From an uncultured Actinomycetes bacterium (GTDB lineage: Bacteria > Actinomycetota > Actinomycetes > Actinomycetales > Microbacteriaceae): DNA of 46,121 nucleotides. Below, one piece after another: positions 3,101 to 46,121 of the stretch. The position numbers and the translations under genes were made by a program. The notes under the pieces were generated by a model. The model saw only the letters and a list, made by a program, of their open reading frames with translations, ran no database searches and had not been told where the DNA came from. Each line of letters begins with the position of its first letter. The first letter of the stretch is position 1. Location of the stretch: assembly GCA_903920435.1 (NCBI GenBank), contig CAIXMB010000039.1:1-46121 (forward strand), read 5' to 3'.

Positions 3101-4039
3101 TCACACAGCCGACGCGGCGTCGAGCGCCGCCACCTCCTGGGGCGTCAGGTCGACGGATGCCGCGGCCACCAGCTCGGCAACCTGAGCCGGTGTCGTCGCG
3201 CTCGCGATCGGTGCGACGATACCGGGCTTCGCGCGCAGCCACGCCAGTGCCGTCGTCGGAACGGATACCCCGCGCGCTACCGCGATCGCGTCGAGGGCGT
3301 CGATCACCCGAAGCCCGCGCTCGTCGAGGTACTGGCCGGCGCCCTTGCCGCGGGCCTTGCCCGCGAGGTCGGCCGCGGTGCGGTACTTGCCCGAGAGGAA
3401 GCCGCTCGCCAGCGAGAAGTACGGCATGACGCCGAGGTCGTGCTCCGCGACCACCGGGGCGAGTTCGGTCTCGTACGGCTCGCGGCGCACGAGGTTGTAG
3501 TGCGGCTGCAGGGCGACGGGCAGTGCGTAGCCCTCGCGCTCGGCGATCGAGATCCACTCCTCGATGCGGTCTGCCGAGTAGTTGGAGACGCCGACGTAGC
3601 GCACCTTCCCGGCGACGACGAGATCGTTGAACGCGCCGACGGTCTCGGCGAGCGGCACGCTCGCGTCGTCGAAGTGCGCATAGTAGAGATCGATGTGATC
3701 GGTCGCGAGCCGGGCGAGCGACGCGTCCGCGGCCGCGGCCACGGTGGCGGCCGCGAGTCCCGGGAACTGCGGATGCTGGCTCACCTTGGTAGCCACGACG
3801 ATGTCGTCGCGATTGCCGCGGGCGGTCATCCACTCGCCGATGATCGTCTCGGACTCGCCGCCGGTGTTGCCGGGGACCCACGCCGAGTAGCCGTCGGCGG
3901 TGTCGACGAAGTTGCCGCCCCCGACGGCGAACGCGTCGAGAACGGCGAAGGACTCGTCTCGGGTGGAGGTCCACCCGAAGGTGTTGCCGCCGAGGTTGAG
4001 CGGGAAGACGTCGAGGTCAGAGTGTCCGATGCTGGTCAT
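3101..4039 (-). CDS. Aldo/keto reductase
   Basis: This is an NAD(P)H-dependent oxidoreductase with a TIM-barrel fold, 312 residues, close to the AKR norm. The catalytic tetrad can be placed: Asp and Tyr in FVDTADGYSAW, Lys in VVATKVSQH, and His in DLYYAHFDD. Cofactor-loop residues lie in the C-terminal part near [14 protein letters not shown]. The gene stands between nusB and the ABC importer operon on the same strand and is not closely coupled to either. The substrate is unknown. With the importer it forms a block absent from the usual nusB-pyrR neighbourhood. Confidence 0.9.
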   Translation of the reverse strand: MTSIGHSDLDVFPLNLGGNTFGWTSTRDESFAVLDAFAVGGGNFVDTADGYSAWVPGNTGGESETIIGEWMTARGNRDDIVVATKVSQHPQFPGLAAATVAAAADASLARLATDHIDLYYAHFDDASVPLAETVGAFNDLVVAGKVRYVGVSNYSADRIEEWISIAEREGYALPVALQPHYNLVRREPYETELAPVVAEHDLGVMPYFSLASGFLSGKYRTAADLAGKARGKGAGQYLDERGLRVIDALDAIAVARGVSVPTTALAWLRAKPGIVAPIASATTPAQVAELVAAASVDLTPQEVAALDAASAV

Positions 4040-4092
4040 ACAAGGGATAAGTCGAGCCAGCGCGGAGATGTTCCGCCGCGCGCGACATCGCC

Positions 4093-4506
4093 CTATGCGC
4101 GGCTGTCGGCGATCCTGGCAAGCAGTCCGTTGATGAAGCCGGCCGAGTCATCCGTGCTGTGGATCTTAGCCGACTCGACGGCCTCCGCGATCGCGACCCC
4201 GTTCGGGACATCGTCGTTGTAGAGGATCTCCCAGAGGCCGATGCGCACGAGGGCGCGGTCGACGGCGGGCATACGGGCTATCGGCCAGCCCTGCGAGTAC
4301 GTCTCGATAAGCTCATCGATCTCGTCGCCGTGCTCCGTGATGCCGATGACGATGTCGCGGGCGTACGGCCACGAGTTCGCGCGCTTGAGGTCGGCGTCGT
4401 TGCGCGCCTGCTCCGCCGCGAGAGCCTCGTTGATCGACTCCTCCCGAACATCGGCTCCGTAGAGGATGTCGAGGGCGCGCTTGCGTGACTTGGTGCGGGC
4501 GCCCAC
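4093..4506 (-). CDS. nusB: Transcription antitermination factor NusB
   Basis: NusB is an all-helical RNA-binding protein that works with NusE (S10) at boxA during rRNA antitermination. The 137 residues match the family: an Arg/Lys-rich start (MGARTKSRKRALDILYGADV), then MPAVDRALVRIGLWEIL and the conserved VAIAEAVESAK segment. Start is GTG at 4506, which shares one base with the efp stop codon (TAGTG), so translation is coupled to efp. The efp-nusB order is conserved in actinobacteria. Here the downstream neighbour pyrR has been displaced by about 3.7 kb of other genes. Confidence 0.94.
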   Translation of the reverse strand: MGARTKSRKRALDILYGADVREESINEALAAEQARNDADLKRANSWPYARDIVIGITEHGDEIDELIETYSQGWPIARMPAVDRALVRIGLWEILYNDDVPNGVAIAEAVESAKIHSTDDSAGFINGLLARIADSRA

Positions 4507-5069
4507 TAGTCGTTGACTCGACCCAAGTACGACCCGTCGCGCGTGTCGACCTTGACCTTGGTGCCCTGCTCGAGGAAGAGCGGCACCTGGATCTGGTAGC
4601 CGGTCTCGACAGTGGCGGGCTTGGTGCCGCCCGTGGAGCGGTCGCCCTGGAGGCCCGGCTCGGTGTAGGTGATCTCGAGGGTGACGGATGCCGGGAGCTC
4701 GACGTACAGCGGCTCGCCGTTGTGCAGGGCGATGGTGACGTCCTGGTTCTCGAGCATGAAGTTGGGGGCGTCGCCGACCTGGGCCGGGGTCAGCGTGATC
4801 TGGTCGTAGTTGCCCTTGTCCATGAAGACGTAGTTCTCGCCGTCCGCGTACAGGTACTGGTAGTCCGCACGGTCGACGGTCTCGGTCTCGATCTTGGCTC
4901 CGGCGTTGAACGTGCGGTCGACCACCTTGCCGCTCATGACGTTCTTGACCTTGGTGCGCACGAAGGCGCCGCCCTTGCCCGGCTTGACGTGCTGGAAGTC
5001 GATGACCGTCCAGAGCTGGCCGTCCATGTTGAGGACGACGCCGTTCCTGATGTCAGCGGTAGAGGCCAT
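4506..5069 (-). CDS. efp: Translation elongation factor P
   Basis: EF-P rescues ribosomes stalled at polyproline stretches. The 187 residues are full length, with a KOW-like N domain, an OB domain and a C domain ([31 protein letters not shown]). The loop [20 protein letters not shown] contains the lysine (in KPGKGGAF) that inserts next to the P-site tRNA. No lysyl-modification gene (epmA/epmB) is nearby; actinobacterial EF-P is generally reported to work unmodified. The gene heads the efp-nusB pair and starts with ATG at 5069. Confidence 0.96.
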
Positions 5070-39172: not shown

Positions 39173-39244
39173 GTCGTGCGCGGCGGCTGGCCCGTGCCGC
39201 GGGAGCAGCGGCCGACATTGCTGCGCTGGCGCCGGGGTCAGCGT

Positions 39245-39277
39245 GTCACGCGGGGGTCACGCCCGCCGACTTAAGGT
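39245..39277 (+). promoter_or_regulatory. SARP-box-like direct repeats and -10 box ahead of the SGNH/GAF gene
   Basis: GTCACGC occurs at 39245-39251 (there reading GTCACGC) and again at 39256-39262, exactly 11 bp apart. Eight bp later comes TTAAGGT (39271-39277, with TAAGGT a TANNNT match). The same repeat at the same spacing lies before the surface-protein gene at 42778-42817. Confidence 0.55.
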
Positions 39278-39294
39278 GCTCGCGAGGGGGTCGG

Positions 39295-40503
39295 ATGCTG
39301 CAGGAACTCAGGTCGATCGCCATGCGGCCAGTGCTCATGGCGTGGTGGGCGCGAAGCCGTCTGGGGTGGACGTTCCAGCTACCGGCGGATTCTCACGCCC
39401 ACACCAGGGGTGTCGATCCGGATCGAATCCTGCTCATGGGCGACGGTGCGGCAGCGGGATTGGGGGTTCTCGCCCAGGATCTGGCGCTCGCCGGCCAGCT
39501 CGCGCGACGGGTCACCGCTCTGACCGGCCGCGCGATCGATGTCGACGTCGTTGCCGAACGGGACATGTCACCGAGCCGTGCACAGCAGCTCCTCCTCACC
39601 GCCCCGCTGGCGCGATATGACGTTCTCCTTCTCGTACTCGGCACCGGTGACGCGCTCACCATCACGCCCACCTCGAAGTGGCAGCGGGACCTCGAGCGGA
39701 TGTGCGACACCATCGAGAGTTCGGCTCCCGCATCCCTGCGCACCTTCATGGTCGGCATTCCCGACGTGGGCACGCTCGACGGCCTGCCCCGATTCTTCTC
39801 CCTCATGGCCGGAGGGCACGGGCGAAAGCTGAACGCGGCGACCCACACCGTGTGTGCTCGTCACCCCCGTATCACCTACCTCCCCTTCGACCCGGATCGG
39901 CTTGCCGACGGGCGCCGTGGGAGCAAGGAGACGTACGGGCACTGGGCAGAGCTCATCGCCCCAGCGGTCGCCCTCGGCCTTGGCCGGATGCCCGGGACCC
40001 GGTGTTTCGGGCCGCAGGACGAAGCCAGGCGCCAGAATGCGCTCCACGAGTTGAGCGTGACGGGAGCGGCATCCGATCCACGATTCACCGCAATCGTCTC
40101 CTCGGCGCGAAATCTCTTCGGAACCACGGCCGCGGCCATCACGTTCCTCGACGGCGATCGCGTCGCCTTCCTCGCGGTAAACGGAGCCTCGCCGGCGGCG
40201 ATCACGCGTGAAAGCTCCTTTTGCACCCTCACGATCGAGCGGGCCGAGGTGCACGTCGTTACTGACGCATCGAGGGATCGACGATTCGCGAACCATCCGC
40301 ACGTCGCGGGCTCCCCGCACATCAAGTTCTACGCGGGCTATCCGATAGAAGCACCCGACGGCACCCGGATCGGCGCACTCTGCATCTTCGACACCACGCC
40401 ACGCGCCTTCGGTGGGGCTGACGCCTCCCTGCTTCGAAGCCTTGCCCAGCAAGCGCAGGCCCTGCTCTGGCAGGCCGGGTGGGCCGCTCCAGCCCCGGTG
40501 TGA
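39295..40503 (+). CDS. SGNH-like / GAF two-domain protein, catalytic Ser and Asn missing
   Basis: This is a 402-residue cytosolic protein with no signal peptide. Residues about 44-235 look like an SGNH-hydrolase fold: RILLMGDGAAAGLGV stands where the GDS block should be, VLGTGDAL where GxND should be, and YGHWAELI near the end of the fold. Ser is Gly at position 51 and Asn is Gly at 118, so hydrolysis is unlikely. Residues about 245-395 form a GAF domain (AITFLDGDRVAFLAVNGA; FYAGYPIEAPDGTRIGALCIFD). It is convergent with the BTAD regulator (9-nt gap). A ligand-sensing role is inferred. GAGGGGG precedes the ATG. Confidence 0.8.
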   Translation: MLQELRSIAMRPVLMAWWARSRLGWTFQLPADSHAHTRGVDPDRILLMGDGAAAGLGVLAQDLALAGQLARRVTALTGRAIDVDVVAERDMSPSRAQQLLLTAPLARYDVLLLVLGTGDALTITPTSKWQRDLERMCDTIESSAPASLRTFMVGIPDVGTLDGLPRFFSLMAGGHGRKLNAATHTVCARHPRITYLPFDPDRLADGRRGSKETYGHWAELIAPAVALGLGRMPGTRCFGPQDEARRQNALHELSVTGAASDPRFTAIVSSARNLFGTTAAAITFLDGDRVAFLAVNGASPAAITRESSFCTLTIERAEVHVVTDASRDRRFANHPHVAGSPHIKFYAGYPIEAPDGTRIGALCIFDTTPRAFGGADASLLRSLAQQAQALLWQAGWAAPAPV

Positions 40504-40512
40504 GCCGCCGGG

Positions 40513-41628
40513 TCAGGCGTGTTGGATGCTCACGACGAGATCGTTGAGATGAGTCGTGGGCGTCAGTCCGAGTGCGGCCATTAAGAGCTCGCAGTAGTGG
40601 TTGTAGGCCCTCAGGGCTTCCGACTGGTTGCCTTTCGCGAGATGCACCCGGATCAGGATGGCGTGCGGACTCTCACGCAGGGGCTCGACCTTCATCGCCG
40701 CGCGCGCGGCCGCCGCAGCTTCCCCATACCGCGCAGCATCGAGGTGAATGAGGGCCAAAGCCTCCAGCGCGTTCATCCGTAGCTGTCGCCAGTCTTCCGC
40801 TTCGGCGACTACCCAGTCGTCGTACCAATCGGGTAGCAGCTCCAGAGACAGCACCGCGAGTGCTTCGACGTCGAGGTCGAACGAGCTGATCGTCGAATCC
40901 GCGACCAGGAGTCGGCGCGCAAGCTTCTGAGCGTCGTGCAAATCCACCCTGACACCACCGGCAAGGCCCAGCCCACCCGAGGCAACAAGGGTCGCTTCCC
41001 GCGATACCGGGTCCAGCCTCGAGAGAGCTGCGCGCAGGCTGATCCCGGCTCGTTCGTCCGACACATCAGGCCACATCGCGCCCGCCACGGCACCCCGCCT
41101 GATCGAACGATCGTGAAGCGCCAGGTAGACCAGCAGTCGTTGCGATCCGATGGAGAGACCGTAGACCTGCTCGCCGCCCACCCGGAGCGCGAAAGCACCG
41201 AGCATCGAGATTTCGATGTCCCCGGCCTGAGGCGATAGCGACTCATCGCCTTCCACAGTGAGAGTGGCGGGTGTTGGCACCGTGAGCGCCCACCGGCGGC
41301 TCCAAGCGTCCAGCGCGTCTATCACGTCCGAGAGGTCGCGCCCCTTCTCGGTGAGCCGGTAGCGGCGTTCTGAGCCGCCGGCATCGGCTACGGCCTCCAG
41401 CAACCGGGAGCTCGCGAGATCCTCCAGGTTCGTTTCGAGATCCGCAGGAGCAATGCCGAGATGTGCCGCGAACTCGCTCGCGCTGGTGGTCGGCCGGCTC
41501 AGAGCTTCACCGAGGATCAGAAGGCTCCACTGCACGAGCTCGTTCATGAGGCCGACCAGGGAGTGGGGCGCACGCCGCCCGCTTCTCGCTCGAAGATGTA
41601 TCGGCCGAACTTGATCATGGGTCTCCAC
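40513..41628 (-). CDS. HxlR-like + OmpR-type + BTAD regulator (SARP-like)
   Basis: This 371-residue regulator joins three parts. Residues about 28-113 look like an HxlR winged helix (WSLLILGEALSRPTTSASEFAAHLGIAP; RRYRLTEKGRDLSDVIDALDAWSRRW). Residues about 138-210 look like an OmpR-type DNA-binding domain (ISMLGAFALRVGG; QRLLVYLALHDRSIRRGAVAGAMWPD). Residues about 225-368 are a bacterial transcriptional activator domain (YGEAAAAARAAMKVEPLRESPHAILIRVHLAKGNQSEALRAYNHYCELL). GTG 41628 is used; ATG 41547 would still keep HxlR. TAGACT at 41645-41650 is a candidate -10 box. It most likely acts on the flanking genes. Confidence 0.82.
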   Translation of the reverse strand: METHDQVRPIHLRARSGRRAPHSLVGLMNELVQWSLLILGEALSRPTTSASEFAAHLGIAPADLETNLEDLASSRLLEAVADAGGSERRYRLTEKGRDLSDVIDALDAWSRRWALTVPTPATLTVEGDESLSPQAGDIEISMLGAFALRVGGEQVYGLSIGSQRLLVYLALHDRSIRRGAVAGAMWPDVSDERAGISLRAALSRLDPVSREATLVASGGLGLAGGVRVDLHDAQKLARRLLVADSTISSFDLDVEALAVLSLELLPDWYDDWVVAEAEDWRQLRMNALEALALIHLDAARYGEAAAAARAAMKVEPLRESPHAILIRVHLAKGNQSEALRAYNHYCELLMAALGLTPTTHLNDLVVSIQHA

Positions 41629-41671
41629 GCTCTCGTTCGAACCGAGTCTACGCGCCCATCAGCAAGAACTT

Positions 41672-41718
41672 GAGCCGGTTTCGAATTGCGCCCCTCTGTG
41701 GTGATGCGAAACCGGCTC
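41672..41718. terminator. 12-bp perfect inverted repeat between the surface-protein and regulator genes
   Basis: GAGCCGGTTTCG (41672-41683) and CGAAACCGGCTC (41707-41718) are perfect reverse complements around a 23-nt loop. It lies just after the surface-protein stop. No clean T-run follows on the minus strand (AAGTTCTT), so it may be a weak terminator or transcript-end stabiliser. Confidence 0.5.
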
Positions 41719-41726
41719 TGCGCCCC

Positions 41727-42740
41727 CTACTCCGCCCGGGCTGAACCCCGGCGACGACCTACCACGATCGAACCGGCCCCGAGCAGGATCAGACCGAGCG
41801 CCAGCGCTGTCATGGCCGGTCCGTTCGTGCTCGATCCGGTGTTGGGCAGGGTGGTATACCCCGTGCTGACCGGAGTGGCATCGACAGTCGTCTCGACCGC
41901 AGCCACTACCGGGGGCACCACCACGGGAACCGGCACCGGCACGAATCCGGTGACGACGGGACTCGTGGGCAGCACGGTGATGTCGACCGGCGGCGTGTAG
42001 GCGACCGTGTTGTCCGGCCGGTGGAAGTTACGGATGACCGTCCGGCAGATCACACTGCTGCCACCGCCGTTTGCGGAGTTGTTGCACTGGTTGACGGTCA
42101 CGGTCAGGGACTCGCTCGTCGTCGACCCCTCCGCGAGGGAGCAGTGGAGCACACTCCCGCCGCCATTGTCAGAATCGTTGCACTGCACGACTGTTGCCGT
42201 TGCCGGATCCGTGCTCAACGAGGGCAAGTAGGTATCGCACTCCACCACATCTCCTGTTGTCACCGAGTTGTTGCACTCGTTGACCGTCGGCTCCACAGGC
42301 GGAGGCCCGCCCGTAACGTAGTTCAGCACGTCCACCGTGCAGAGGAGCGTTGATCCACCGCCGTTCACCGCGTAGTTGCACTGGTCGACATTGGTGACCA
42401 GTTCGCTGTACCCGACCGCGCCCACACTCGTGCAGACACCGGCTAGTGCCGCGTCTGCAGCACCGAGGCAGGACGTCACCGTCACTGTGGACGAGGTCAC
42501 GGGAGCCGTCGGATCCGTGAGGTCGAGGTTGTTCACCACCTCGATGTGACACTCGAGCCCGTTTCCTCCGCCGTCGCCCACCGCGTCACACTGGCTGATG
42601 TCCTGCGCGAACGCGCCCAGCCCCGGCGCGAGGGCCACCATGGCAAAGGTCGCGAGTGCGACCGCTGTGACTATCCCCGCCGCTCGACGAACCCCGCGTC
42701 GCGCGCCCCTGGCGCCTCGCTCCAGCCGACCTGATCTCAT
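41727..42740 (-). CDS. LPXTG surface protein with six Cys-pair modules
   Basis: This is a 337-residue exported protein. The Arg-rich start and hydrophobic stretch (IVTAVALATFAMVALAPGLGAFA) form a signal peptide. Six modules each hold a Cys pair 12-13 apart (Cys 51/64, 91/103, 121/134, 156/168, 187/200, 219/232), several as QCNNSxNGGGSxxxC. A Pro/Val-rich stalk follows, then the sortase motif LPNTG (298-302), a membrane helix and a basic tail. AAAGGGGAAG precedes the ATG. No sortase gene is in the window. The function is unknown; adhesion or cell-wall structure are guesses. Confidence 0.87.
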   Translation of the reverse strand: MRSGRLERGARGARRGVRRAAGIVTAVALATFAMVALAPGLGAFAQDISQCDAVGDGGGNGLECHIEVVNNLDLTDPTAPVTSSTVTVTSCLGAADAALAGVCTSVGAVGYSELVTNVDQCNYAVNGGGSTLLCTVDVLNYVTGGPPPVEPTVNECNNSVTTGDVVECDTYLPSLSTDPATATVVQCNDSDNGGGSVLHCSLAEGSTTSESLTVTVNQCNNSANGGGSSVICRTVIRNFHRPDNTVAYTPPVDITVLPTSPVVTGFVPVPVPVVVPPVVAAVETTVDATPVSTGYTTLPNTGSSTNGPAMTALALGLILLGAGSIVVGRRRGSARAE

Positions 42741-42763
42741 GACTTCCCCTTTGGTTACTTCTC

Positions 42764-42817
42764 AGCATCCATGGGGGCCGTGACGACGCAGTCACGGCGG
42801 TGTGACGCGGCCGTGAC
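42764..42817 (-). promoter_or_regulatory. Four GTCAC-type repeats at 11-bp period and -10-like hexamer ahead of the surface-protein gene
   Basis: On the plus strand GTGAC, GTCAC, GTGAC and GTGAC begin at 42780, 42791, 42802 and 42813, exactly 11 bp apart. Read toward the gene (minus), the last copy is GTCACGG (42784-42778), followed by 8 bp and then GATGCT (42769-42764). This equals the layout at 39245-39277. GCCGTGAC/GTCACGGC at 42778-42799 also form an 8-bp inverted repeat. Confidence 0.6.
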
Positions 42818-43216: not shown

Positions 43217-43223
43217 CTTCTTG

Positions 43224-43295
43224 TGGGCGGTACTGGGATCGAACCAGCGACCTCTTCCGTGTCAGGGAAGCGCGCTACCGCTGCGCCAACCGCCC
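43224..43295 (-). tRNA. tRNA-Val (anticodon GAC)
   Basis: A 72-nt cloverleaf: acceptor GGGCGGT/ACCGCCC, D arm GCGC-AGCGGTA-GCGC, anticodon stem CTTCC/GGAAG with loop CTGACAC (anticodon GAC), T arm with GGTTCGATCCC, discriminator A. CCA is not encoded. It is the last of three tRNAs transcribed together on the minus strand. Confidence 0.96.
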
Positions 43296-43332
43296 ATAGT
43301 TATTGGTCGAACATCCGGTGGATGCTCTTCCG

Positions 43333-43403
43333 AGGTGACGACCGGATTTGAACCGGTGTACACGGCTTTGCAGGCCGTTGCCTCGCCTCTCGGCCACGCC
43401 ACC
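43333..43403 (-). tRNA. tRNA-Cys (anticodon GCA)
   Basis: A 71-nt cloverleaf: acceptor GGTGGCG/CGTCACC (one G-U pair), anticodon stem ACGGC/GCCGT with loop CTGCAAA (anticodon GCA), T arm with GGTTCAAATCC, discriminator T as expected for Cys. CCA is not encoded. Confidence 0.96.
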
Positions 43404-43441
43404 GCGTGCAGAAGCATCAGCAGAACTGACACTCCCACTCG

Positions 43442-43513
43442 AGCGGATGACGAGATTCGAACTCGCGACCCTCACCTTGGCAAGGTGATGCGCTACCACT
43501 GCGCCACATCCGC
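43442..43513 (-). tRNA. tRNA-Gly (anticodon GCC)
   Basis: A 72-nt cloverleaf: acceptor GCGGATG/CATCCGC, D arm GCGC-AGTGGTA-GCGC, anticodon stem TCACC/GGTGA with loop TTGCCAA (anticodon GCC), T arm with AGTTCGAATCT, discriminator T as usual for Gly. CCA is not encoded. First tRNA of the operon. Confidence 0.96.
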
Positions 43514-43539
43514 ATGCCCGCATTTCTGCGTGCTAGATG

Positions 43540-43569
43540 ACTGTAGCCGATGTTCGCGACGGGAGCCAA
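43540..43569 (-). promoter_or_regulatory. Promoter of the Gly-Cys-Val tRNA operon
   Basis: On the minus strand a -35 TTGGCT (43569-43564) is followed by an 18-nt spacer and the -10 TACAGT (43545-43540). The tRNA-Gly 5' end is 26 nt beyond the -10 box. Confidence 0.6.
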
Positions 43570-43614
43570 TCGTGTGACGGGCGGGTCGCATTCGTATGGC
43601 AAGATTGTGTTCGC

Positions 43615-43690
43615 GGGCGATTGGCGCAGTTGGTAGCGCGCTTCCTTCACACGGAAGAGGTCATCGGTTCGAGTCCGGTATCGCCCACCA
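43615..43690 (+). tRNA. tRNA-Val (anticodon CAC), CCA encoded
   Basis: A plus-strand cloverleaf: acceptor GGGCGAT/ATCGCCC, anticodon stem CTTCC/GGAAG with loop TTCACAC (anticodon CAC), T arm with GGTTCGAGTCC, discriminator A, then CCA at 43688-43690. It is very similar to the minus-strand tRNA-Val(GAC), giving an inverted pair. No convincing -35/-10 pair was found; CAAGAT at 43600-43605 is the best -10 candidate. Confidence 0.96.
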
Positions 43691-43691
43691 G

Positions 43692-44462
43692 ATGTCATCA
43701 GTCAAGGAGTTCTTCGCCGGAGTCGGCCTCCTGTTCCGCGGTTTCGCGACATGGCGCACCGCCCCCGGCCGCATGCTCCTCGGGCTCATCCCTGCGGTCA
43801 TCGTCGCGGCCGCGTTCACCGTCGGGCTCGTGTTCCTGGCGATCAACATCGAGACGCTCGCCGCCCTGGCCACGCCGTTCGCCGACGGCTGGGACCGCAT
43901 GTGGCGCGACATCACGCGCATCGCCGTCGCGCTCGCATTCCTCATCGCCGCGATCCTCATCATCTCGCTCACCTTCACGACTCTGACCCTGATCATCGGT
44001 CAGCCGTTCTACGAGCTCGTCTGGCGGCACGCCGAGTCGCGGTTCGGGCCGGTGCCCGACAATGCCCCGGGCTTCTGGCGCTCCGTCGGCCTCGGCATCA
44101 CGAGCGGCCTCCGGATGCTCGTGCCGACGATCCTCGTCGGTGTCGCGCTCTTCGCGCTCGGGCTCGTCCCCCTCGTGGGGGCGATCCTCGCCGCCGTGCT
44201 CGGCGCGTTCGTCGGCGGATGGTTCCTCGCCCGCGAGCTCACCGGCCTCGCGTTCGACGCGCGCGGAGTGGGCTACCGGGAGCGCCGCGCGGCGCTCCGC
44301 TCACGTCGACCGCTCGTGCTGGGCTACGGGGCGGCGACGTACCTGCTGTTCCTCGTGCCGCTCGGCGCGGTCGTGGTGATGCCGGCGGCGGTCGCGGCAT
44401 CCGTGCTCGTCACGCGGCGCGTGCTCGGCGAGACTACGACCGCGCTCGCCCGAACCAGGTAG
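43692..44462 (+). CDS. EI24 domain membrane protein
   Basis: This is a 256-residue integral membrane protein of the EI24/CysZ-like family. It begins MSSVKEFFAGVGLLFRGFATWRTAPGRMLLGLIPAVIVAA, the family N terminus, and has four to six membrane segments. GQPFYELVWRHAE is a conserved loop. In CysZ the family moves sulfate, but a role here is unknown. ATG 43692 is one base after the CCA of tRNA-Val, so no ribosome site exists outside the tRNA. The 3' end overlaps the convergent DUF2071 gene by 29 nt. Confidence 0.87.
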   Translation: MSSVKEFFAGVGLLFRGFATWRTAPGRMLLGLIPAVIVAAAFTVGLVFLAINIETLAALATPFADGWDRMWRDITRIAVALAFLIAAILIISLTFTTLTLIIGQPFYELVWRHAESRFGPVPDNAPGFWRSVGLGITSGLRMLVPTILVGVALFALGLVPLVGAILAAVLGAFVGGWFLARELTGLAFDARGVGYRERRAALRSRRPLVLGYGAATYLLFLVPLGAVVVMPAAVAASVLVTRRVLGETTTALARTR

Positions 44463-45153
44463 TAACGCCCGGGCTGAACAGCACGGAGTCGGGGGCCCGC
44501 GCGGAAAGCCCGGGGATGCCCGCCCGCTCCAGCAGCGTGTCGTCGAGAAACTCCACCGTGGCGGTCACGAGCGGCCAGGGCTCGTGCTCGTTGGGCAGAA
44601 AGATCGTCCGGCCGAACCGAGTGGTGAAGAGCCCCCAGCGCGCGGTGAGGAAGTCAGCGGTGGCCTCGCCCACGACCGGATCCGTGCCGACACGTGCCAC
44701 AAGGTGCGACCTGCCCGGGCCGACATGGCGTTGCGAGTGGTACTCGATGCGGCCCTCGCCCTCCGCCTGCGAGGTGCGCGACCAGAAGTACGGAATCGAG
44801 AAGGCCGCGCGCGCGGAGAGCACGGCGGCGAGGCGAGACGCCTCGAGTGACAGGAACACGACCCCGCGCCGACCACGCCCGTCGACCCCGTAGAGCCGCA
44901 CGTTCACCTCGGTGAACGCGCCGAAGAACGGCACGGGCGGGCTGCCGTAGAGCGTGGCGCGATCGAGGTAGAAGGCGATGAGGCCCACCCAGCTCGACCC
45001 GTCGTGCTCATCGGGTCGAACGCCCGCCGGCATGAGGGGCGCGAGCACGGATGCCTCCACCCGCCAGTGCACGAACGTCACGCTGCTCCACCGCTGGCTC
45101 GCGACGGCCCTGCCCTCGAGGGCGGGCGCGGACACGCTGATGGGCTCGATCAC
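44434..45153 (-). CDS. DUF2071 (YqjF-type) protein
   Basis: This is a 239-residue cytoplasmic protein of unknown function. It matches the YqjF/DUF2071 pattern: SQRWSSVTFVHWRVEASVLAPLMPAGVRPDEHDGSSWVGLIAF near the start, FTEVNVRLYGVDGRGRRGVVFLSLEASR in the middle and FLTARWGLFTTRFGRTIFLPNEHEPW late. The GTG 45153 overlaps the upstream membrane gene stop by GTGA. A lipid- or hydrophobic-ligand-related role has been suggested for some members, without proof. Confidence 0.82.
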   Translation of the reverse strand: MIEPISVSAPALEGRAVASQRWSSVTFVHWRVEASVLAPLMPAGVRPDEHDGSSWVGLIAFYLDRATLYGSPPVPFFGAFTEVNVRLYGVDGRGRRGVVFLSLEASRLAAVLSARAAFSIPYFWSRTSQAEGEGRIEYHSQRHVGPGRSHLVARVGTDPVVGEATADFLTARWGLFTTRFGRTIFLPNEHEPWPLVTATVEFLDDTLLERAGIPGLSARAPDSVLFSPGVTTWFGRARS

Positions 45154-46121
45154 GTCGCCTCCCCTCGCCGACCCACGATACGCGCGAGCCAGCGCAGCAG
45201 CAGCCACAGCACGAGCGAGACCGCGGTCGAGTAGGCGGCGACGAGCACGGTGCCGAGCACCTGGTTGATGATGAGGGCGAGCGACCCGGTGAAGAAGAAG
45301 CCCTTGTCGGTGGCGAGCAGCCCAAGCACCACGATGCCGACCGCCGCCGCGATGAGGTGCGAGCCCACCACGAACCACTGGAGTCGCCGGCTCGAACTGA
45401 CCCGCCGCACCGTGAAGATGCAGGCGGCACCGCCGGCGAGGATTCCGGCAGCCGCAGCGGAGCCCGGGGTGAAGAGTGGTGCACCGGCGGTGACCGCGAC
45501 CAGACCGCTCAGGAGTCCCGCTGCCGCCGCCGGCAGCGTCGTGGACTGGTGGCTGAGCCGCTGCACGATGAGCCATCCGATGGCACCGCCGAGCGCTCCG
45601 ACGATGCCGTTCCCGAGGATCACGGGGCTCACGTCGTCGATGGCGAGCTCGGCGCCCAGCAGCCAGGCCACCCAGCCCGCGCACAGGCACACCATGGCGA
45701 CAATGCCCGTACGCCGCGTGATGCTGGCCGTGCGCAACCGCGGGCCGCCCAGCAGGAGCACGCCCAGCGCTGCAGCGCCCGCGGAGACGTTGACCGCCAG
45801 GGCGCCGCCATGGTCGACGGGCTGGATGTCGATCGGCCACGACGCCGCGTAGGGGGCGAAGGTGAGCACGGCGGTGGGCACGAAGACGAGAGCGCTCCAG
45901 ACCGCGCCGAACACGACGGTCGTGATCGCTCCCCCGCCTGCCGCGCGCACGGCGATGGTGGCGACGTAGGCCGCGACACCCCCGAGCGCGGCGATGGGTG
46001 CGAACAGGGGGCCGAGCGCATCCGGGGCCGCGAGCGGCACGATGACGACCCACCCGACGGCGCCGGTGGCCGCGCACGCGAGGGAGGTCAGCACAGACCG
46101 GCGCCAGGGGGCGGCGGGGAG
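45150..46121 (-). CDS. Amt-like (ammonium transporter fold) membrane protein, 5' end beyond window
   Basis: At least 314 residues and about ten membrane segments are visible. The frame is still open at the window edge; GTG 46094 is only the first in-window start. QPVDHGGALAVNVSAGAAALGVLLL matches the Amt block DFAGGxVVHINAGxAAL, and GLLSGLVAVTAGAPLFTPGSAAAAGILAGG matches GxLAGLVAITPAAG. The Amt position of the first pore His (PxAH) reads VPTAV, while a His is present in VVGSHLIAAAVG. The GWFGFNAG block is degenerate (AGWVAWLLGAELA). A divergent, perhaps non-ammonium, member is likely. Confidence 0.6.
   Translation of the reverse strand, partial: LPAAPWRRSVLTSLACAATGAVGWVVIVPLAAPDALGPLFAPIAALGGVAAYVATIAVRAAGGGAITTVVFGAVWSALVFVPTAVLTFAPYAASWPIDIQPVDHGGALAVNVSAGAAALGVLLLGGPRLRTASITRRTGIVAMVCLCAGWVAWLLGAELAIDDVSPVILGNGIVGALGGAIGWLIVQRLSHQSTTLPAAAAGLLSGLVAVTAGAPLFTPGSAAAAGILAGGAACIFTVRRVSSSRRLQWFVVGSHLIAAAVGIVVLGLLATDKGFFFTGSLALIINQVLGTVLVAAYSTAVSLVLWLLLRWLARIVGRRGEAT

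Follow-up and report, generated by a model that had tools for sequence, protein, structure and literature searches.

The DNA under study, hereafter the window, is a 46,121-bp stretch (contig CAIXMB010000039.1, positions 1 to 46,121) from the 3.16-Mb, 96%-complete draft genome of an uncultured bacterium of the Microbacteriaceae. Near one end, the window carries a gene for a putative regulator of the SARP type (Streptomyces antibiotic regulatory protein), preceded on the same strand by a gene for a predicted surface protein, and a gene for a GAF-domain protein that is convergent on the regulator gene. Repeats with an 11-bp period lie in front of the surface gene and of the GAF gene. An earlier note on this DNA had read the three genes as one system, in which the regulator activates both flanking genes and the GAF protein feeds it a signal. 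Genes were called by script, with a heuristic based on third-codon-position G+C content (GC3). The features are listed below, with -10 offsets counted from the first base of the last repeat unit.

42780–42817, minus strand: operator array of the surface gene, four GTNAC units at an exact 11-bp period (unit starts 42817, 42806, 42795 and 42784)
42764–42769, minus strand: putative -10 element of the surface gene, GATGCT (A at offset 17, T at 21)
41727–42740, minus strand: surface protein gene (signal-peptide-like N terminus, Cys modules, Thr/Val/Pro-rich spacer, LPNTG, membrane helix, RRR tail)
41672–41718, minus strand: inverted repeat with a 12-bp stem between the surface and regulator genes, from sequence and folding; possible attenuator or processing stem
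40513–41547 (likelier, ATG start) or up to 41628 (GTG start), minus strand: regulator gene (HxlR-type winged helix, AfsR-type DNA-binding domain, BTAD)
39245–39260, plus strand: operator of the GAF gene, two units (GTCACGCGGGGGTCAC; GTCAC twice, 11 bp apart)
39272–39277, plus strand: putative -10 element of the GAF gene, TAAGGT (A at offset 18, T at 22)
39295–40503, plus strand: GAF protein gene (N-terminal degenerate SGNH-like part); probable local second target, outside the conserved unit

The regulator displays an HxlR domain at the N terminus (Pfam, E 1.3e-7), which superimposes on HypR and on HxlR with Z 12.4, other winged helices giving similar values. The AfsR-type domain stands second rather than at the N terminus, and the BTAD (PF03704, E 1.8e-16) lies directly behind it. 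Pfam misses this middle domain, which was recognised by profile matches to AfsR (E 2.3e-13) and EmbR (E 8e-8), and the structure model of the regulator aligns with AfsR at Z 16.4 (root-mean-square deviation 3.8, 234 aligned residues) and with EmbR at Z 14.9. Pfam gave no FHA match in the protein. The gene is the only one with a BTAD found in the draft genome. By testable features, namely the AfsR-type domain, the BTAD and 11-bp repeats at the proper distance from a -10 element, the predicted protein classifies as a SARP.

The surface protein is predicted to be a sortase-anchored LPXTG protein. Its sorting signal comprises LPNTG at residue 298 and a helix at 308–329 (Gram_pos_anchor PF00746, E 2.7e-4; TIGR01167 above cut-off), while the N terminus shows a basic stretch and a predicted helix (15–35) that resemble a signal peptide by inspection; two sortases (PF04203) are encoded in the source genome. 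Twelve Cys residues are arranged as six C-x11/12-C modules, and all 12 are invariant in a 13-row alignment (A2), from which two weak matches, short ones in long frames, were left out (L015, E 3.8e-4; L016, E 6.3e-4); matches as weak as these do not reach the E-value threshold of the family search below. The AlphaFold model contains a beta-rich core at about residues 51–240, with block means of 70–96 for the confidence score pLDDT. No known fold was recognised for this core by Foldseek (best E 2.5) or VIA-align (best Z 3.3), and a sequence search of the PDB with it returned nothing better than E 2.9.

The four units of the surface promoter read, in order, GTCAC, GTCAC, GTGAC and GTCAC. Pairs of GTNAC at 11 bp occur in the window at this promoter and at the GAF promoter only, and a scan of the window found no such array in front of the regulator gene itself. 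In the whole genome, three GTNAC units at 11-bp steps are found at a single place, the surface promoter, and two GTCAC units at six places, two of which are the promoters of the window (two places for the reversed-pattern control). A GTNAC pair followed by ANNNT at offset 17 or 18 occurs twice in the window, as compared to a mean of 0.05, and never two, in 200 order-1 Markov windows. Chance as the origin of the repeats was rejected on these grounds, together with the specificity for period 11 and the tracking of a linked regulator gene described below. Elsewhere the genome has four further GTCAC pairs, whose -10 status was read by eye: that of L190 shows ANNNT at 17 but falls in a likely coding frame, and behind the remaining three no ANNNT stands at 17 or 18.

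Conservation of the surface gene, the regulator and their promoter in the family

We searched 398 genomes of the family and obtained matches to the surface protein in 38 (E <= 1e-15) and to the regulator clade in 49 (E <= 1e-30). The regulator gene is the next gene downstream of the surface gene in 30 of the 38, on the same strand and with about 1 kb or less between the matches, adjacency being assigned by hand from match coordinates. Surface gene and regulator are a conserved unit.

The repeats accompany this unit. We scored the 330 bp upstream of each surface match, which yielded 39 rows from the 38 genomes (G370 is present twice, and one of the two G329 pieces was used). At least two exact GTNAC units at 11-bp steps were observed in 29 of the 30 promoters with a linked regulator, but in none of the nine surface hits (eight genomes) without linkage. 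At least three exact units are present in 19 of the linked promoters, and the longest arrays hold seven exact units, or nine when degenerate ones are counted. At the control periods of 7–10 and 12–15 bp, such pairs were seen in 0 or 1 of the 30 linked and 0–2 of the nine unlinked cases. The array depends on the linked regulator within a single genus as well, since in g77 two genomes (G237, G312) have both regulator and array and two others (G139, G277) have neither. In both of the latter, the surface gene bears stops, as if decaying after loss of the regulator.

Over 127 units, chosen by their likeness to GTNAC in a way that biases the consensus letters, the consensus is GTCACGN-N4, with T at position 2 in 126. 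The -10 geometry was determined on 22 non-redundant promoters, G109 being omitted as it has no run and one of the eight remaining rows of genus g35 being kept. A stands at offset 18 in 19 of the 22 and T at offset 22 in 18, and ANNNT begins at 17 or 18 in 20; any other pair of offsets excluding both accounts for three promoters at most. The distance from the end of the heptamer to the -10 hexamer is thus 8–9 bp. Parts of two SARP papers place the last direct repeat about 8 bp from the -10 element (PMC10936776, PMC5930380), and the gap found here is in line with that rule as worded in the first of them (PMC10936776). In the window, the surface promoter (GATGCT) has the shorter spacing and the GAF promoter (TAAGGT) the commoner one. 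Altogether, the earlier note's description of a SARP-type regulator and of GTCAC repeats at an exact 11-bp period before both genes was borne out; for the surface gene, the repeats and the -10 spacing known for SARPs extend to the family.

Related regulators beyond the family

Searching with an alignment of the regulator yielded 80 loci of related regulators (756,056 bp), among them Saccharothrix, Streptomyces, Crossiella, Acidimicrobiales and several metagenome-assembled genomes (MAGs) of Chloroflexota (L123, L127, L160, L161 and L183; the bin identity of MAG contigs is uncertain). The HxlR-type N-terminal part was matched in 11 of the 80. Trios of GTNAC at period 11 form 30 runs in 27 loci; of the other periods from 6 to 33, only two gave any, both multiples of 11: 22 with 7 runs and 33 with 4. 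A surface homologue lies within the flanks in 26 loci. At least two units stand in the stretch read upstream of it in 24 of these, and in 20 they are followed by ANNNT at 17 or 18. The upstream reach was 1 kb for three loci, where the array lies about 0.9 kb (L123) or about 1.1 kb (L136) from the surface homologue or is not found (L127); the reach used missed the four-unit array of L141.

In the 54 loci that have no surface gene, we counted arrays with more GTCAC than GTGAC units, scored on that strand, and found 47 in 32 loci, the other 22 having none of this kind. ANNNT starts at offset 17 in 17 of these arrays and at 18 in 14, with six at most at any other offset between 8 and 39. Some arrays in the regulator loci have no clear gene start behind them.

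Several kinds of gene were observed behind such arrays. In a Rhodoglobus MAG, the closest relative (L107:3805-7464), and in genome G275 (L264:3347-6610), a PF11999 ice-binding surface protein replaces the Cys-module protein; the order is array, PF11999 gene, regulator and MFS transporter, and the regulator frame of G275 has a stop. Eight Pseudonocardiaceae loci (L120, L130, L131, L133, L139, L143, L145 and L146, at about 4030-4800) show a two-unit array and a small secreted-looking protein with RTX-type repeats (by Pfam run on L131, from Saccharothrix, only), the gene of which precedes the regulator by a few hundred bp. An amidase gene follows the array in a Streptomyces locus (L178). In Amycolatopsis jejuensis (L176:3424-7646), GTNAC pairs at 11 bp, which run as GTGAC in gene direction, precede genes of the core of an extracellular contractile injection system (eCIS) and of the phage-sheath type, with the clade regulator adjoining. 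A conserved open reading frame of 70–80 aa (LLIIRAW...PLR...) comes after the regulator in L140, L148, L149, L162, L173 and L180, with a GTNAC pair near the regulator stop; its L140 copy has no Pfam match. In two genomes with a more distant clade regulator, GTNAC-type arrays stand before a protein of about 740 aa with no Pfam match (L265:12651-14946, L266:4404-6681). A degenerate three-unit array with a -10 element at the usual offset stands before a caspase-domain gene (PF00656) divergent from a distant clade regulator (L268:4465-5395).

A candidate regulatory circuit

The explanation that we favour, with a probability of roughly 0.8, is that a small, non-antibiotic SARP with an extra N-terminal HxlR-type winged helix activates the neighbouring gene for a sortase-anchored Cys-module protein by means of the 11-bp units. 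The head-to-tail GTCACGN-N4 units share one face of the DNA, and most likely each would bind one protomer of the regulator, so that the protomers form a row, as has been shown for PimR; at the last unit, 8–9 bp before the -10 element, the regulator would recruit RNA polymerase to the surface-gene promoter. As no array precedes the regulator gene and this gene follows the surface gene, read-through from the latter into the former may provide positive feedback. The inverted repeat between the two genes forms a stem in the fold centroid (z only -1.14); it was rejected as a terminator, given that z value and the lack of a T tract after the stem. The HxlR domain or the BTAD might read a signal.

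Other winged-helix regulators recognise direct repeats of the same 11-bp period, with GTTCACC as the box of PhoP and GTNAC-n6-GAAAC as that of GlnR, and one of these could bind the arrays, with the SARP gene as a mere neighbour. The similar letters and equal period would fit this, as would the occurrence of three GTCAC units in 16 of the 349 family genomes lacking the clade regulator, which implies that other factors may use such sites. Nevertheless, the arrays track the linked SARP gene (29/30 against 0/9, also within one genus) and recur beside regulators of the same clade where the surface gene is missing, and the consensus GTCACG matches neither GTTCACC nor an alternation with GAAAC, even if the selection of units by GTNAC likeness biases its letters. 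On balance, we consider binding by such a regulator highly improbable.

Some observations weigh against activation by the linked SARP. The array of G109 is degenerate only, and in two unlinked genomes (G141, G370) another contig encodes a more distant member of the clade. Two regulators of the clade occur in G198, with neither a surface gene nor exact 11-bp pairs in the two 8-kb stretches read, and exact GTNAC pairs at 11 bp are lacking in 8 of the 80 regulator loci, some of which are truncated at a contig end. Many of the genomes are related, 9 of the 30 belonging to the Clavibacter-like genus g35, and of the 26 loci with a surface homologue at least 11 are contigs already present in the family set, so that the 54 other loci are the more independent part. 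Finally, the repeat alone is not diagnostic, being enriched rather than exclusive: GTCAC three times is present in 12 of the 49 family genomes with the clade regulator and also in the 16 of 349 without it (8 of 398 for the reversed control), and GTCA four times occurs in 16 of 150 genomes (one for the control), of which only three are surface-regulator genomes, all of their places being the surface promoter. Four g74 genomes in which no clade regulator was matched at E <= 1e-30 (G073, G188, G274, G365) share a GTCAC x3 site starting GTCACAGAATTGTCACGG, which is perhaps the operator of another regulator.

ActII-ORF4 and RedD are other members of the SARP family, for which control of an antibiotic cluster is typical without being a defining feature. 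The present regulator resembles AfsR and SARPs such as PimR in its AfsR-type domain and BTAD and, by the rule given in PMC10936776 and PMC5930380, in its 11-bp direct repeats and their distance of about 8 bp to the -10 element. It differs from them by the extra N-terminal HxlR domain and by the sortase-anchored surface protein as neighbour. PimR has three and two repeats with the heptamer CGGCAAG, as compared to two to nine units of GTCACGN here, and at least two heptamers are needed for its binding according to the part of PMC5930380 that deals with it. The N-terminal domain is shared with the HxlR family (HxlR, HypR), but is fused to a SARP in the present case. EmbR of Mycobacterium, whose pathway concerns the cell envelope, has the same DNA-binding domain and BTAD and ends in an FHA domain; the present regulator has HxlR in front and no such end by Pfam. 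BTAD genes have been noted near eCIS loci, in passages of PMC8213781 that give no operator. The likeness lies in BTAD genes beside non-antibiotic effector loci, as in the Amycolatopsis locus, while the surface-regulator unit contains no eCIS genes. In the open-access literature, we found no paper that has both HxlR and BTAD and no description of the surface-regulator unit, subscription papers lying outside this search. BTAD genes near eCIS loci are already known; for the HxlR fusion and a surface protein as putative SARP target, the search listed no description.

The arrays of the distant loci suggest a broader reading, to which we give even odds, that a cross-phylum clade of small SARPs constitutes self-contained switch modules, made of a regulator and a promoter code, (GTCACGN-N4) x2-9, 8–9 bp, NANNNT, with exported effectors that are swapped. 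The effector would be the Cys-module LPXTG protein in the source genome, Clavibacter, Agreia, Subtercola and Chloroflexota MAGs, and elsewhere the PF11999 protein (two genomes), an RTX-repeat protein (Saccharothrix type), the Streptomyces amidase or perhaps injection-system genes. To our knowledge, SARPs are known almost only as antibiotic activators in Streptomyces. If the modules are real, SARPs could be, in origin or at large, switches of exported or surface effectors, with antibiotic clusters as one outcome, and their targets would be predictable from the promoter code. In this clade, the operator and promoter code is readable across distant bacteria and points to surface and secreted proteins among the putative targets, so that regulons can be predicted from sequence. 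Moreover, the array length of two to nine units offers a natural series for tests of cooperative binding, and it may be asked which surface signal is common to the bacteria that carry the ice-binding and Cys-module proteins.

The GAF gene and other features of the window

The GAF protein has a GAF domain (Pfam, E 1e-12) and was called a pseudo-SGNH/GAF protein in the earlier note. The SGNH motifs of its N-terminal part are degenerate, with GDG at 49 and GTGD at 116 in the place of GxND, and neither GDS nor DxxH was found in the protein; the match behind the SGNH assignment is itself weak (2hsj, E 0.015). Queried against 150 genomes, the protein matches 86, often several times and in many cases by the GAF part only, with six places in the source genome. 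Up to 13 matches per genome were counted (G016, G097 and others), partly GAF only, and several genomes have neighbouring copies.

These relatives do not accompany the regulator. A profile of the GAF/SGNH protein matched nothing in the 80 loci of the regulator clade, which were taken with flanks of up to 5 kb. GTCAC x2 is absent from the 350 bp before the match in all 29 other GAF/SGNH members; in one relative (L048), two GTNAC units stand 11 or 22 bp apart. The GAF gene therefore lies outside the conserved unit, and the three genes as a conserved system were rejected. It follows that the co-occurrence and the shared upstream repeats which the earlier note looked to for its three families hold for the surface gene and the regulator and fail for the GAF gene.

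That the complete three-gene circuit nonetheless operates, with the GAF/pseudo-SGNH protein sensing a ligand and feeding the regulator, which then drives both flanks, appears unlikely to us. The code does stand before both flanking genes here, at two of only six genomic GTCAC x2 places; against this, the GAF gene is missing from 80 of 80 related regulator flanks, its relatives occur in many genomes that have no such regulator, and none of the 29 has the upstream pair.

A narrower proposal fares better, as the GAF gene is probably a second, local target of the regulator in the source genome, because its promoter fits the code in unit spacing and -10 element. The operator lies 34 bp before the ATG, TANNNT is found at the offset commoner in the clade, and the regulator gene, with the one BTAD that turned up in the genome, is less than 2.5 kb away. 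With 0.05 pairs carrying a -10 element expected per window and two seen, these features speak against a chance match that would leave the surface gene as the sole target. Chance is the less probable explanation, yet a substantial one: there are two units only, they are not conserved before other GAF/SGNH homologues, and the genome has four further GTCAC pairs, at least one of them in a likely coding frame. Of the activation of both flanking genes put forward in the earlier note, the surface side has a conserved promoter code behind it and the GAF side is plausible from two units, TAAGGT and the 34-bp distance.

Apart from tRNAs, Rfam reported nothing in the window at the gathering threshold. 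Four clustered tRNA genes (Val-GAC, Cys, Gly and Val-CAC; 43223-43690) lie shortly upstream of the surface gene. Further along, on the minus strand, a frame for an ammonium-transporter-like membrane protein (PF00909; 45150-46094) is overlapped by a frame with DUF2071 at its end (44434-46077).

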